A stretch of DNA of 64,000 nucleotides from positions 2,182,001-2,246,000 of the forward strand of contig QXCW01000002.1 in the NCBI GenBank assembly GCA_003550275.1. The letters run 5' to 3'. Numbering within the stretch: the stretch's first letter is position 1; each line of letters opens with the position of its first letter. A program made the position numbers and the translations under genes. The DNA comes from Flavobacteriaceae bacterium MAR_2010_72 (GTDB taxonomy: Bacteria; Bacteroidota; Bacteroidia; Flavobacteriales; Flavobacteriaceae). Below, piece after piece: positions 44,808 through 51,615 of this stretch. A model generated the notes under the pieces. The model ran no database searches, was not told the origin of the DNA, and saw only the letters and a program-made list of their open reading frames with translations.

Positions 44808-45254
44808 ATGAAAAAATTAATATTACTAACATGCTTTCTCGTCTTAACAGCTTTTGCAAATGCACAAGATAAAGACAGAGGAGAACGTATCAAAGCCCTG
44901 AAAGTTGCTTTTATTACAGAACGTTTAGAGCTTTCTGAAAGTGAAGCCCAAAAATTCTGGCCAATTTATAACACTTTTGAAGAGTCGTATCATAAGTTGA
45001 GAAAGCAGTCATACGAAAAACGTAAAAAAGAAAATCTGGAATCGCTTAGCGAGGAAGAAGCAAAAACATTACTCACTGAAATGAGTGTAATCGAAAATCA
45101 GAAGCATAAATTGCGTGAACAATTCACCAAAGATTTATTAAAAGCCATACCTGCTAAAAAAATAATTCTTTTAAAAGCTACTGAAGATGCGTTTAACAAA
45201 CGCATGTTTGAAGAGTATAAAAAAAGAAGGCAGAAAAAAGAAGAACGTCCTTAA
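44808..45254 (+). CDS. Spy/CpxP-like periplasmic protein, ECF-linked
   Basis: A 148-residue protein with a signal peptide ending near AFANAQ (about residue 19), then a long helical hairpin rich in charged residues: ITERLELSESEAQKFWPIYNTFEESYHKLRKQSYEKR, with MSVIENQKHKLREQFTKDLL. The pattern is that of LTXXQ-type CpxP/Spy proteins that sense or chaperone misfolded periplasmic proteins. The ATG at 44808, four bases after the preceding gene's stop codon, is preferred over a TTG at 44793. Third gene of the sigma cassette. Confidence 0.78.
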   Translation: MKKLILLTCFLVLTAFANAQDKDRGERIKALKVAFITERLELSESEAQKFWPIYNTFEESYHKLRKQSYEKRKKENLESLSEEEAKTLLTEMSVIENQKHKLREQFTKDLLKAIPAKKIILLKATEDAFNKRMFEEYKKRRQKKEERP

Positions 45255-45259
45255 ATAAA

Positions 45260-45393
45260 GAGGTCATCTAAAAAGTAATAAAAACTGGATTTTGTCAGGT
45301 TGAGCGCAGTCGAAACCTATTAATTTTCAGTAGTTGGTTAGTAGTTCTCGACTGCGCTCGAACTGACAGATAACAACCTTTTTAGACAACCTC
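45260..45393. repeat. Large imperfect palindrome with the TGAGCGCAGTCGA core
   Basis: Outer arms GAGGTCATCTAAAAAG (45260-45275) and CTTTTTAGACAACCTC (45378-45393) pair except at two central positions. Inner arms of 21 bases (45293-45313 and 45348-45368) pair at 19 of 21. A T-run follows on +. It lies between converging genes and may stop transcription, but its core recurs inside purL. Confidence 0.75.
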
Positions 45394-45399
45394 TTTTTT

Positions 45400-46443
45400 T
45401 TACTTAAACGTAAGTTTACTTATCCTTCCTTTTCCTGCAGCATAAGCCACACTATCGTTTAAAAAGCGGATGGTATAGAATCCTTCTTCACTTAAATGCT
45501 TCCAAGTTGAACCACTATCATTTGAATAGTCGACACCTTTAAAGCCAACTGCAATTAGCTCCGCTCCTTCTCTATTAGGCATATATTGCACACAACTTCT
45601 GTATCCCGGATTTTGATTCTGCGCCACCAACTCCCAAGTTTTTCCGCCATCATGAGTGCGTATTTTATTAGCCGAATTGCCTTCTGGTTTAGTATAATCA
45701 CCTCCAATGGCAAACCCATTAAGTTCATCATAAAAAGCAATAGAATAAATGCCTTCAGTTTCCTTTTCTTTTGTTATAGGCGTTTCAAACACTTCCCAAG
45801 TATGACCTTTATCAGGTGAATAATAAACTCTGCCTGCGGTTGTAGCTACCCAAGTTTTGTCTCCAACGATGGCAATATTAGTGTTACTAGCCGCAAAAGC
45901 GCCTTCATTTGCTTCTGCTTTTGGTAAATCGTTACAAGATAATTTAGCCCATGTTTGGCCTCCATTTCTGGTAACAATAACACTTAAACAACCATCTATG
46001 GAATCACCAATAGCAATGCCTTCTTGGTCGTTCCAAAAATCCATAGCATCGTAAAACACATTAGGGTGATGTTCTTCATAAACAAGACCCATCGTTCCAC
46101 TATCAGTAGTTTTAAATAGCAAAGCAGGATTCCCAACAGTCAGCATATAAAAATCACTTTTAGTATGTGCAACCGATCTAAATTCCAACGGTAATGAATC
46201 ATATTGATGTTCAGAGACTAACCATTTATCTGACTTAATATTATAAAGGCCATAGGTGTTATGGTTTGCGGCAAAAGCCAAACTATTACTATCTAACATA
46301 GTAATAGCCCTAATACTCAATATAGAATCTTCCAAGATGGTTTCGACCTCAATAGTATTAAAATCTCTTGGTTTAAATTCATTCTTCCTTCCGCAGGAAA
46401 AAAAACCAATAAAAATAACCAAAATGATAAGTAGCTGTTTCAT
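45400..46443 (-). CDS. BNR/Ycf48-like beta-propeller lipoprotein
   Basis: A 347-residue lipoprotein (IGFFSCG, Cys about residue 17) built of repeated Asp-box/BNR-like segments: TRNGGQTWAKL, SPDKGHTWEVF, THDGGKTWELV and SNDSGSTWKHL. These form a seven-bladed propeller like Ycf48 photosystem-assembly proteins and sialidase-type folds. In flavobacteria it is often annotated as oxidoreductase without evidence. The role is unknown; it is probably periplasmic or outer-membrane-attached. Confidence 0.82.
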   Translation of the reverse strand: MKQLLIILVIFIGFFSCGRKNEFKPRDFNTIEVETILEDSILSIRAITMLDSNSLAFAANHNTYGLYNIKSDKWLVSEHQYDSLPLEFRSVAHTKSDFYMLTVGNPALLFKTTDSGTMGLVYEEHHPNVFYDAMDFWNDQEGIAIGDSIDGCLSVIVTRNGGQTWAKLSCNDLPKAEANEGAFAASNTNIAIVGDKTWVATTAGRVYYSPDKGHTWEVFETPITKEKETEGIYSIAFYDELNGFAIGGDYTKPEGNSANKIRTHDGGKTWELVAQNQNPGYRSCVQYMPNREGAELIAVGFKGVDYSNDSGSTWKHLSEEGFYTIRFLNDSVAYAAGKGRISKLTFK

Positions 46444-47895: not shown

Positions 47896-50800
47896 ATGAT
47901 TCATTTCTTTGGAAACGCAAACAGCAAAGTATTTGCTGTTCAAACAACAAAAGAATTATCAACCGAAACCATTTCAAAACTGACCTGGTTATTTGGCAAC
48001 CAGCCAAAAATAGAACAAGCATCTCTCGATGCTTTTTTTGTTGGTCCACGGGCTGCCATGATTACCCCTTGGAGTACCAATGCTGTTGAAATCACCCAGA
48101 ATATGGGCATTTCAGATATCATTCGTATTGAAGAATTTGAAGCCGTTTCGAAAGATTTCAAAGGCTACGATCCTATGATTTCAGAAAAATTCAACGGACT
48201 AAACCAGGAATCATTTACCATAAACATTCAACCAGAGCCCATATTAAACATTGAAGACATTGCCGCTTACAACCTTCAAGAAGGGTTATCCTTAAGTGAT
48301 GACGAAGTTGATTATTTAAAAGGTGTTTCCAAAAAAATAGGTCGCCCGTTAACGGATTCCGAAGTATTCGGGTTCTCACAGGTAAATAGCGAACACTGTC
48401 GACACAAAATTTTTAACGGAACCTTTGTTATTGATGGTGAAGAAAAACCCGTTTCATTATTTAAAATGATTCGTAAAACATCTGAAACGAATCCAAATGA
48501 TATCGTTTCAGCCTATAAGGATAATGTGGCATTTGTAAAAGGCCCTATAGTTGAGCAATTTGCTCCCAAAAGTGCCGACAAACCCGACTTTTACCAAACC
48601 AAACCTTTTGAATCTGTCATCTCTTTAAAAGCAGAAACACACAATTTCCCAACTACTGTTGAGCCTTTTAACGGTGCTGCTACAGGTTCTGGTGGTGAAA
48701 TCCGCGACCGTTTAGCTGGAGGAAAAGGATCTTTACCATTGGCAGGAACTGCCGTTTATATGACGTCCTACTCACGATTGGAAGACAACCGTCCTTGGGA
48801 AAAAGCTATGGACGAGCGCAAGTGGTTATACCAAACACCAATGGATATTTTAATTAAGGCCTCAAATGGGGCTTCAGATTTTGGCAACAAATTCGGCCAG
48901 CCGCTTATCTGTGGTTCTGTATTGACCTTTGAACATGATGAAGAAACAGATGTCACCCTGAGCGCAGTAGAAGGCTCTCCTCGTAAGTTGGGTTACGACA
49001 AAGTCATTATGCAAGCTGGTGGTATTGGTTATGGCAAGGCAGAACAAGCACTAAAAGACACCCCAAAAACGGGTGATAAAGTAGTGATTTTAGGTGGTGA
49101 AAACTACCGAATTGGTATGGGTGGCGCTGCGGTATCATCGGCAGATACTGGCGAGTTTTCATCAGGAATTGAATTGAATGCAGTACAACGTTCCAATCCA
49201 GAAATGCAAAAACGTGCTGCTAATGCCGTTCGCGGTATGGTAGAAAGTGATGAGAATTACATCGTTTCTATTCACGACCATGGTGCTGGAGGCCACTTAA
49301 ACTGTTTGTCAGAATTAGTTGAAGAAACTGGTGGACATATTGATTTGGATAAATTACCAGTTGGAGATCCAACACTTTCTGCAAAAGAAATCATAGGTAA
49401 TGAATCTCAAGAACGTATGGGATTAGTGATTGCCGAAAAACATATTGAAACCCTACAAAAAATTGCAGATCGTGAACGTTCTCCAATGTATACCGTTGGA
49501 GATGTTACTGGTAACCATCGCTTTACTTTTGAATCCAAAACCAATGGCAATAAGCCCATGGATTTAGCTATGGAGGATATGTTTGGGAGTTCGCCAAAAA
49601 CATTAATGTATGATAAAACTGTAACGCGTAACTATGGCGATGTTGCCTTTAATAAAAATAAGTTCTATGAGTATTTAGACCAACTATTACAACTAGAAGC
49701 CGTAGCGTGTAAAGATTGGTTAACTAATAAAGTAGACCGCTGTGTTGGTGGGAAAGTTGCCAAGCAGCAATGTGTTGGTCCATTACAGATTCCGTTAAAT
49801 AATGTTGGAGTAATGGCCTTGGATTATAAGGGACAAGAAGGTATTGCAACGTCTATTGGGCATGCACCTGTTTCAGGGTTAATCAACCCAGCAGCCGGTA
49901 GTAGAAATGCCATTACCGAAGCCTTGACCAATATCATTTGGGCTCCTTTAAAAGAAGGCTTAAAAAATGTATCCTTATCGGCCAACTGGATGTGGCCTTG
50001 TAAGAACGAAGGTGAAGATGCGCGTTTATATGAAGCCGTTCAGGCCATTTCTGAATTTGCAATCGATTTAGGAATTAACGTCCCAACGGGAAAGGATTCG
50101 CTTTCCATGAAGCAAAAATACCCAAATGAAGAGGTGATTTCTCCCGGAACCGTCATTATTTCGGCGGCAGCAAATTGCATCGATATCAATAAAGTTGTTG
50201 AGCCTGTTTTTCAAAAAAATGCAGGTGATGTTTACTACATCAATTTATCACAAGACAGCTTTAAATTAGGTGGCAGCTCCTTTGCACAAATCGTTAATAA
50301 AATTGGTAATGACACGCCAAACGTTCAAAATACACCGTATGTAAAAACGGTTTTCAACACCATTCAGCAACTTATTTTGGATGAACACATTGTCGCTGGA
50401 CATGATGTCGCTTCTGGTGGTTTGATCACTACCTTATTAGAATTGTGTTTTGCGGATACCAATTTAGGGGCTGAATTGGATATTACAGCTTTAGCCGAAA
50501 ACGATTCGTTTAAAGTATTATTTGCTGAAAATGCTGGAATTGTAATCCAGTCTAAAGATGCTTCAATTGAAGGTGTATTATCTGAAGCCAACATTGAATT
50601 CTTCAACATCGGGAAGGTAACTGAAAGCGATGTTTTAAGCATCATTAACGGCAGCGAGGTGTTTACTATGACCATTTCGCGTTTACGTGATATGTGGTAC
50701 AAAACCTCTTTACTATTCGACCAAAAACAAACCGCAAATGGGTTAGCCCAGGACCGTTTTGACAATTATAAACATCAGCCTTTACATTATACATTTCCAA

Positions 50801-51615
50801 AACACTTTACAGGCAAACTAGCAGACGTCACTTCGAGTGATTCCAATAAAAATCGGAATCGTATCGAGAAGCCAAAAGCCGCCATCCTCCGTGAAAAAGG
50901 AAGCAATTCCGAGCGTGAAATGGCAAACGCTATGTATTTGGCAGGTTTTGATGTGAAAGATGTGCATATGACCGATTTAATTTCGGGTCGCGAAACACTT
51001 GAAGATATTCAGTTTTTAGGTGCTGTGGGTGGGTTCTCAAACTCTGATGTTTTAGGCTCTGCAAAAGGATGGGCTGGCGCCATTAAATACAACGAAAAAG
51101 CCAATGAAGTCATTAAAAGCTTCTTCAAGCGTGAAGACACCTTATCGGTTGGTATTTGTAACGGCTGCCAGTTATGGATGGAATTAGACCTCATTAATCC
51201 AGAACATGACGTACATGGAAAACTAACCTATAACGATTCGCATAAACATGAAAGTGCCTTTACTTCGGTAAAAGTTCAAAAAAACAATTCGGTAATGTTG
51301 TCAACCTTGGCAGGTACTACCTTGGGCGTTTGGATTTCTCATGGTGAAGGCAAGTTTAAATTACCATATACTGAGGACCGCTATAATATTGTTGCCAAAT
51401 ATGGCTACTCCGAATATCCGCACAACCCAAACGGTTCCGACTTTAACACCGCCATGATGTGTGATAAAACAGGACGTCATTTAGTAACGATGCCACATAT
51501 TGAACGCTCCACTTTTCAATGGAATTGGGCACATTATCCTAAAAACAGAAAAGATGAAGTGTCACCTTGGTTAGAGGCCTTTGTGAATGCCAGAAAATGG
51601 ATTGAAAATCGGTAG
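47896..51615 (+). CDS. purL: Phosphoribosylformylglycinamidine synthase, large single-chain form
   Basis: A 1239-residue PurL that converts FGAR, ATP and glutamine to FGAM in purine synthesis. The N-terminal domain leads into two ATP-binding halves (SQVNSEHCRHKIFNGTF near residue 163, then AETHNFPTTVEPFNGAATG near 252), and a C-terminal glutaminase has its nucleophile in VGICNGCQLW (C1088). A short stretch at about 350-362 (DVTLSAVEGSP) is encoded by a palindromic-repeat arm and seems to be an insertion relative to homologues I recall, where the segment reads roughly TFEH...RKLGYDKVIM. The reading frame is intact. Confidence 0.97.
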   Translation: MIHFFGNANSKVFAVQTTKELSTETISKLTWLFGNQPKIEQASLDAFFVGPRAAMITPWSTNAVEITQNMGISDIIRIEEFEAVSKDFKGYDPMISEKFNGLNQESFTINIQPEPILNIEDIAAYNLQEGLSLSDDEVDYLKGVSKKIGRPLTDSEVFGFSQVNSEHCRHKIFNGTFVIDGEEKPVSLFKMIRKTSETNPNDIVSAYKDNVAFVKGPIVEQFAPKSADKPDFYQTKPFESVISLKAETHNFPTTVEPFNGAATGSGGEIRDRLAGGKGSLPLAGTAVYMTSYSRLEDNRPWEKAMDERKWLYQTPMDILIKASNGASDFGNKFGQPLICGSVLTFEHDEETDVTLSAVEGSPRKLGYDKVIMQAGGIGYGKAEQALKDTPKTGDKVVILGGENYRIGMGGAAVSSADTGEFSSGIELNAVQRSNPEMQKRAANAVRGMVESDENYIVSIHDHGAGGHLNCLSELVEETGGHIDLDKLPVGDPTLSAKEIIGNESQERMGLVIAEKHIETLQKIADRERSPMYTVGDVTGNHRFTFESKTNGNKPMDLAMEDMFGSSPKTLMYDKTVTRNYGDVAFNKNKFYEYLDQLLQLEAVACKDWLTNKVDRCVGGKVAKQQCVGPLQIPLNNVGVMALDYKGQEGIATSIGHAPVSGLINPAAGSRNAITEALTNIIWAPLKEGLKNVSLSANWMWPCKNEGEDARLYEAVQAISEFAIDLGINVPTGKDSLSMKQKYPNEEVISPGTVIISAAANCIDINKVVEPVFQKNAGDVYYINLSQDSFKLGGSSFAQIVNKIGNDTPNVQNTPYVKTVFNTIQQLILDEHIVAGHDVASGGLITTLLELCFADTNLGAELDITALAENDSFKVLFAENAGIVIQSKDASIEGVLSEANIEFFNIGKVTESDVLSIINGSEVFTMTISRLRDMWYKTSLLFDQKQTANGLAQDRFDNYKHQPLHYTFPKHFTGKLADVTSSDSNKNRNRIEKPKAAILREKGSNSEREMANAMYLAGFDVKDVHMTDLISGRETLEDIQFLGAVGGFSNSDVLGSAKGWAGAIKYNEKANEVIKSFFKREDTLSVGICNGCQLWMELDLINPEHDVHGKLTYNDSHKHESAFTSVKVQKNNSVMLSTLAGTTLGVWISHGEGKFKLPYTEDRYNIVAKYGYSEYPHNPNGSDFNTAMMCDKTGRHLVTMPHIERSTFQWNWAHYPKNRKDEVSPWLEAFVNARKWIENR
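48951..48974 (+). repeat. Repeat arm inside the purL reading frame
   Basis: The bases TGTCACCCTG followed by AGCGCAGTAGAAGG share TGTCA, TGAGCGCAGT and GAA with the left inner arm of the palindrome at 45293-45313. Only one arm is present. It encodes DVTLSAVEG in purL. Confidence 0.65.

Follow-up and report, generated by a model that had tools for sequence, protein, structure and literature searches.

GTAG-tagged REPs and REPINs, which go with RAYT transposases, are short multicopy palindromic units that are often paired in opposite orientation. Palindromes of several families have also been described in Rickettsia and Wolbachia, where published accounts place them inside the frames of conserved genes without breaking these, with examples from solvent-exposed areas and with ATGAC motifs (PMC3767692, PMC2229807), and where the account of shared sites leaves undecided whether such a site is a hotspot that took up inserts of separate origins or holds one old insert that has diverged (PMC3767692). 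CGTC-tagged REPs (Di Nocera and others 2013) are described from five phyla including Bacteroidetes, apparently with no dedicated transposase, and are defined by CGTC at one end (TGTC or CCTC in many copies) and by an 8-9 bp stem starting with complementary A/T; some are intragenic, and recB of two Xanthomonas species was struck at about the same site (PMC3733652). The main text of that paper makes no mention of purL, and our literature search, whose scope left many subscription papers and supplements outside, found no account of palindromes in purL nor, for Bacteroidetes or Flavobacteriaceae, of genes that capture them recurrently. Because in-frame palindromes (Rickettsia, Wolbachia) and intragenic REPs have already been described, the inserts that we report here belong to a known kind; what appears to be unreported in the literature searched is that, across the Flavobacteriaceae, the same loops in PurL and in other core enzymes repeatedly capture palindromes of several families.

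We analysed a window of 64,000 nucleotides (C2:2182001-2246000) from the marine Flavobacteriaceae bacterium MAR_2010_72, whose genome (3.41 Mb, two contigs) is 99.98% complete; the compared relatives are Flavobacteriaceae. The window's purL (Table 1) encodes a large-type FGAR amidotransferase of purine synthesis (PRK05297, 1480.8 bits against a cut-off of 783), which we aligned with the proteins of 29 relatives with located loci (n=30 with the window). The nearest of these (G114, G039, G027) are 91-92% identical to the window's protein, which has 1239 residues against 1220 in the nearest relative, a difference that two inserts (+11 and +8) account for together.

Table 1. Features of the window discussed in the text, numbered from its first base.
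Feature	Position	Strand	Basis
Cobalamin riboswitch RF00174	10034-10266	-	Rfam, 92.7 bits
MITE-like element, terminal inverted repeats, intergenic; strong palindrome centre 45293-45368	45253-45400	.	Fold z -6.86; ends; copies
purL, FGAR amidotransferase (phosphoribosylformylglycinamidine synthase), 1239 aa	47896-51615	+	ORF; PRK05297; Pfam domains
Insert 1: family-A repeat remnant, TGTC tag, DVTLSAVEG (residues 352-360), net +11 residues	48951-48974	+	
Insert 2: family-D palindrome remnant, CGTC tag, linker before glutaminase domain, residues 977-992, net +8 residues	50824-50871	+	

The original prediction had seen in the purL frame a 24-base repeat arm encoding an extra peptide, DVTLSAVEG, and translation of the open reading frame confirmed this. 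Where the nearest three relatives read TFEHEEDARKLGFDKV the window reads TFEHDEETDVTLSAVEGSPRKLGYDKV, such that the gap of 10-12 residues expected in relatives is found as a net 11, with the extra columns empty in 23 of the 29 aligned relatives and occupied by inserts of other sequence in the other 6. Homologues had been taken to join TFEH straight to about RKLGYDKV, which they do not, the relatives having a short turn there (TFEH-EEDA-RKLGFDKV). Nor is this a stretch that all close relatives share and a repeat that occurs nowhere else, as the nearest relatives are without it. Compared with the family-A unit TGTCACCCTGAGCGCAGTCGAAGGGTCT, insert 1 has two base differences, both silent (GTC to GTA, GGG to GGC), and its 24-mer is present as a single copy in the window at ≤3 mismatches and in none of 100 shuffles. 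The TGTC at 48951-48954 is a variant form of the tag of CGTC-tagged REPs. The insert folds no better than shuffles (z +0.97), which rules out an intact hairpin and makes it a remnant rather than an intact palindrome, and it keeps the purL reading frame open. An AlphaFold2 model of residues 1-1200, of low confidence (mean pLDDT 59.2; residues 246-378 below 50, with a poor region around the insert), has this stretch as coil between two strands and is of too poor a quality to prove solvent exposure. Of the surface loop tolerating insertion that had been proposed, the tolerance is borne out by inserts in many lineages, while the surface position is weakly suggested by this coil.

A likeness had also been noted to one arm (45293-45313) of an intergenic palindrome upstream. 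The two share the 12-base core GAGCGCAGTCGA, which is found 3 times in the window (≤1 mismatch) against 0.05 expected, twice in this palindrome and once in purL; their flanks differ (CACCCT..AGG in insert 1, CAGGTT..AACC in the palindrome), and judged by sequence the palindrome is another subfamily. It sits at the centre of a MITE-like element (~135 bp, at least 6 copies in the own genome) whose ends resemble AGAGGCTGTCTAAAAAG; the copies beyond the window lie near C2:971.7k, 1006.3k, 1659.2k, 1947.2k and 2875.3k (L119, L124, L125, L120 and L121). With its other flanks and its place in this element, the palindrome was rejected as the direct donor of insert 1. An Rfam family at the insert was likewise rejected, the cobalamin riboswitch, which lies elsewhere, being the sole Rfam match in the window at the gathering score.

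The second insert lies in a linker, where the window reads FTGKLADVTSSDSNKNRNRIEKPKA and the nearest relatives FTGKLPVIDASKPRPKA, and ends at residue 992, where the GATase_5 domain starts (Pfam). Its CGTC tag is at 50826-50829, its arms are those of the family-D palindrome (TTCGAGTG..GTATCGAGAA) and its hairpin is weak (z -0.99); by sequence, its palindrome family differs from that of insert 1.

Evaluating 118 genomes for these repeats, we found 17 copies of the family-A unit (25 bases, ≤1 mismatch; reversed control 0) in 11 genomes, with copies in intergenic DNA of other Flavobacteriaceae, and the family-D arms in 17 genomes. The own genome has no copy of family A at ≤1 mismatch over 25 bases and none of family D at the strictness of the two-arm pattern, and therefore no obvious living donor for either purL insert; the wider core YYGAGCGNAGTCGARR has 18 copies there and is present in 54 of the 118 genomes (reversed control 1 in the whole table). 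The original prediction of a mobile palindrome of this genome that entered the gene and was kept in frame thus holds for the repeat origin, the frame and the absence from the nearest relatives, but not for the donor.

A related core, CCTGAGCGMAGTCGAAGG, lies in the own genome at C2:426.8k and 426.9k (L003, L006), 483.5k and 483.6k (L004, L005) and 2522.1k (L002). Its units contain a tRNA-3'-end-like sequence, GAGTCTCCCCGCCTGTAC, repeated ~118 bases apart and matched by the outer palindrome arm, and according to ARAGORN L003 has a tRNA-Leu upstream, L002 has four tRNA genes and L004 has none.

Adding 80 loci (the best 80 of 588 encoding a relative) to the 30 aligned ones, we assessed 110 purL genes at the site of insert 1 (loop 1) and that of insert 2 (the linker before the glutaminase domain). 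Over the full length of these genes the core (≤2 mismatches) matched 22 times, 7 times in loop 1, 15 times in the linker and never elsewhere, against 1 match, outside the loops, for the reversed core. The family C, C-variant and D-left patterns matched in the linker only (control 0), and the short D-right pattern was noisy (4 linker rows, 1 match elsewhere, 15 control matches); with D-right excluded, 27 of the 110 rows have an in-frame match to a palindrome-family pattern in these two loops. Loop 1 has family A or a related repeat in the window (L008), L041, L045, L066 and L087, with L056 added by eye and L049 borderline. The linker has family B in L018 = L046, L022, L052 and L073 (by core also in L084, L086 and L087), family C, its variant or remnants in L020, L038, L040, L043, L044, L056, L057, L069, L077, L090 and L097, and family D in L008, L029, L051 and L085, and repeats are nested in L022, L056 and L097. 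L018 and L046, whose PurL proteins do not differ, are probably one species.

Loop 1 exceeds its commonest length by at least 6 residues in 47 of the 110 rows, many of them without a recognisable repeat, and this repeat-free length variation fits a generally tolerant site. Perfect inverted repeats with arms of at least 8 bases were found in 12 whole loops, with a mixed result against control windows: clear of these are L051, L074 and L097 and, at about 0.01, loop 1 of L084 and L087, while the remainder lie at 0.045-0.10. Many copies consist of one arm or look eroded. Further runs of minority columns are present in the 110-row alignment at columns 7-59, 321-335 and 849-853. To summarize, loops of this enzyme seem to be repeated landing places for parasitic repeats.

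The independence of these events was evaluated using a quick maximum-likelihood tree that covers 109 of the 110 rows (L108 was left out for one internal stop), built with the loop columns removed, in which 38 of 105 inner branches are unresolved. On this tree, parsimony gives a minimum of 6 changes for the 6 loop 1 rows, 4 for the 5 rows of family B, 11 for 11 of family C and 4 for 4 of family D, changes that may include losses and that refer to 24 rows assigned after the sequences were seen (L049, L084 and L086 excluded despite a core match; L056 placed in loop 1 by eye). L041 has a repeat where its 95.7% identical sister L021 has none, and within the window's eight-row clade (SH-aLRT 100) the linker holds family D in the window, C in L038, the C-variant in L040 and no repeat in five rows. 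A tree constrained to keep the five family-A rows together as a clade was worse by 902 log-likelihood units (p-AU 4.8e-79), which rejects a single exclusive clade and is compatible with an old gain followed by many losses. At the linker the repeat takes the place of some host bases rather than being a clean addition, and no target duplication is visible.

The same phenomenon was seen in other genes. In the own genome the core (≤2 mismatches) gave 32 matches and the reversed pattern 7, which means that some of the 32 are chance matches, and we assessed the context of 26, the other six being in the window or in L003-L006. Most (18 of 26) lie in no open frame of at least 150 aa, four matches in open frames are chance-like (1414729, 1793581, 2247700 and 2850413, the last reading LVLERGRM) and two lie right where an open frame begins (2774864, 2875270). 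Repeat-like stretches inside long open frames were found in a PaaH-type 3-hydroxyacyl-CoA dehydrogenase (GSIVTSSTVERF) and in IcmF (ANVSSSAVETSF), in both cases at variable loops (29 relatives each) where many relatives have no repeat-like peptide and some have another one (NVTLSAVEES in L159 and HSELxSES in L160 and L169 for PaaH; DVTLSAVEKS in L188 and NVTLSTVQRS in L189 for IcmF). The PaaH-type gene has, besides an intragenic second copy at 2773962, a repeat-like copy at C2:2774864 (L007), between an upstream stop and the likely start codon (ATG). In IcmF of L185-L189, the sequence downstream of VSSSAVET is variable once more (DDEIRKQVQDD, DEILNQVQDD and similar), and its QVQDD-type peptides may be another repeat frame. 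Four of the family-A copies found in relatives (17 in all) lie inside long open frames, and each is translated as VTLSAVEG or differs from it by one residue; they are in an A2M-like protein (L142, L146), HsdM (L143) and leucyl-tRNA synthetase (L153). Not counted among these are L140, which stands where an open frame begins, and L148, whose frame has 129 aa, and the remaining 11 lie in no long open frame. Two genera (G013, G060) share the repeat unit of the A2M-like protein and its position, near residue ~499 of 917-aa frames; the label of the protein in L146, which has no NCBIfam match, comes from likeness to L142.

Compared with the described systems, the purL inserts resemble the palindromes of Rickettsia and Wolbachia (RPEs and WPEs) as these are published in sitting in frame in conserved genes, in belonging to several families and in occurring at the same site in orthologues (PMC3767692, PMC2229807), and family C runs GTCAT..AATGAC where the published examples contain ATGAC. 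They differ in unit size (24-85 bases against the 100-150 given for classic RPEs), in phylum, and in the empty relatives and different families found at one loop among close relatives. The TGTC and CGTC end tags and the lack of PF01797 in the own genome are shared with CGTC-tagged REPs as described, but the family-A consensus has a stem of just 5 bp rather than the A/T-starting 8-9 bp of that definition (PMC3733652), and in the own genome 18 copies were seen of the wider core but none of families A and D at the strictness applied. Like GTAG-tagged REPs and REPINs, the repeats are short, multicopy and palindromic; unlike them, they have no GTAG tag at the purL inserts. Terminal inverted repeats make the intergenic element MITE-like, whereas at the purL inserts, the ends of which cannot be fixed, neither these nor a target duplication was seen by eye.

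As to mobilisation, PF01797 (Y1/RAYT transposase), the only transposase profile searched, gave no hit at E ≤0.001 when run against the own genome. Across 72 family genomes it is present in 7 of 17 with at least 10 repeat copies and in 23 of 55 with fewer, and repeat number did not differ with its presence (Mann-Whitney p 0.18; strong matches only, p 0.61). Mobilisation by a RAYT was rejected on both counts, and the lack of a link fits the view, put forward for CGTC-tagged repeats, that these have no dedicated transposase (PMC3733652).

We consider it very likely that the extra PurL peptides are translated remnants of small non-autonomous REP-like palindromes of two families, lodged in a variable loop and a linker that tolerate them. 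The repeat identity, the open frame, the absence from the nearest relatives and the recurrence of several families in these two loops are what was observed; weighing against this reading are the lack of a living donor in the own genome at the strictness searched, the linker repeat that takes the place of host bases with no target duplication visible, the unresolved branches of the quick tree, the poor model at loop 1 and the noisy D-right pattern. Under this reading, trans-acting or since-lost machinery would have copied the repeats into purL, and selection would retain in-frame copies in loops of little importance. A tolerance filter, rather than DNA targeting, would then explain the recurrence, the same loops recurring because an in-frame insert there presumably leaves the enzyme working, and the peptides themselves may be near-neutral and erode over time. 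A bolder proposal, which we regard as improbable, makes the palindrome pool a moving supply of loop peptides for the Flavobacteriaceae, placed or swapped by non-RAYT machinery, mostly in one orientation and frame (with the tag as a GTC codon). The permissive loops of core enzymes that receive them would be fixed (two in PurL, others in PaaH, IcmF, LeuRS and further proteins), such that loops would change between lineages as modules and some would be kept for function.

The apparent capture could instead be differential loss, in which a single old insert, or a loop that was long in the ancestor, was inherited and then repeatedly shortened, lost or diverged, which we judge unlikely. It would accommodate the many repeat-free rows among the 47 with a long loop 1, possibly eroded forms in L028, L053, L054 and L058, and the inserts at the same loci that are described for Rickettsia orthologues (PMC3767692). 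It has to contend with a single clade of eight rows whose linkers hold D, C, the C-variant or nothing, with copies that remain near consensus, and with the rejection of an exclusive family-A clade, a test that does not cover an old gain with many losses. Horizontal exchange of insert-bearing purL alleles or loop segments by recombination, such that one event would show in many places, seems to us distinctly unlikely: family-C and variant linkers are very alike in distant rows (L040/L077; L018/L052) and host bases beside the insert are replaced too, yet the several families and the nested copies require several events regardless.

That the peptides are functional parts of the loops, under selection for stability or interdomain movement for example, is very improbable. 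Both differences of insert 1 from its unit are silent, and one frame and orientation is kept in 4/4 in-gene family-A copies found by DNA pattern in relatives and in the three of the own genome, observations that amount to very few cases; against them stand nearest relatives with no insert, other lineages with unrelated sequences and copies that look eroded. Chance resemblance to a repeat, finally, we hold to be next to impossible. Some of the own-genome core matches in open frames do look like chance, 2850413 for instance, and the reversed control gave 7, but a chance match for insert 1 is rejected by the shuffles, by the core count of the window and by the scan of 110 genes, in which the matches coincide with an indel and stay within loops.

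The question left between hotspot and old insert in Rickettsia and Wolbachia becomes a countable one in the Flavobacteriaceae, because different families and empty loops occur among close relatives and very many genomes are to hand. In alignments and trees, peptides of repeat origin exaggerate how much loops differ, and the inserts provide a natural map of where PurL and other core enzymes tolerate insertion.
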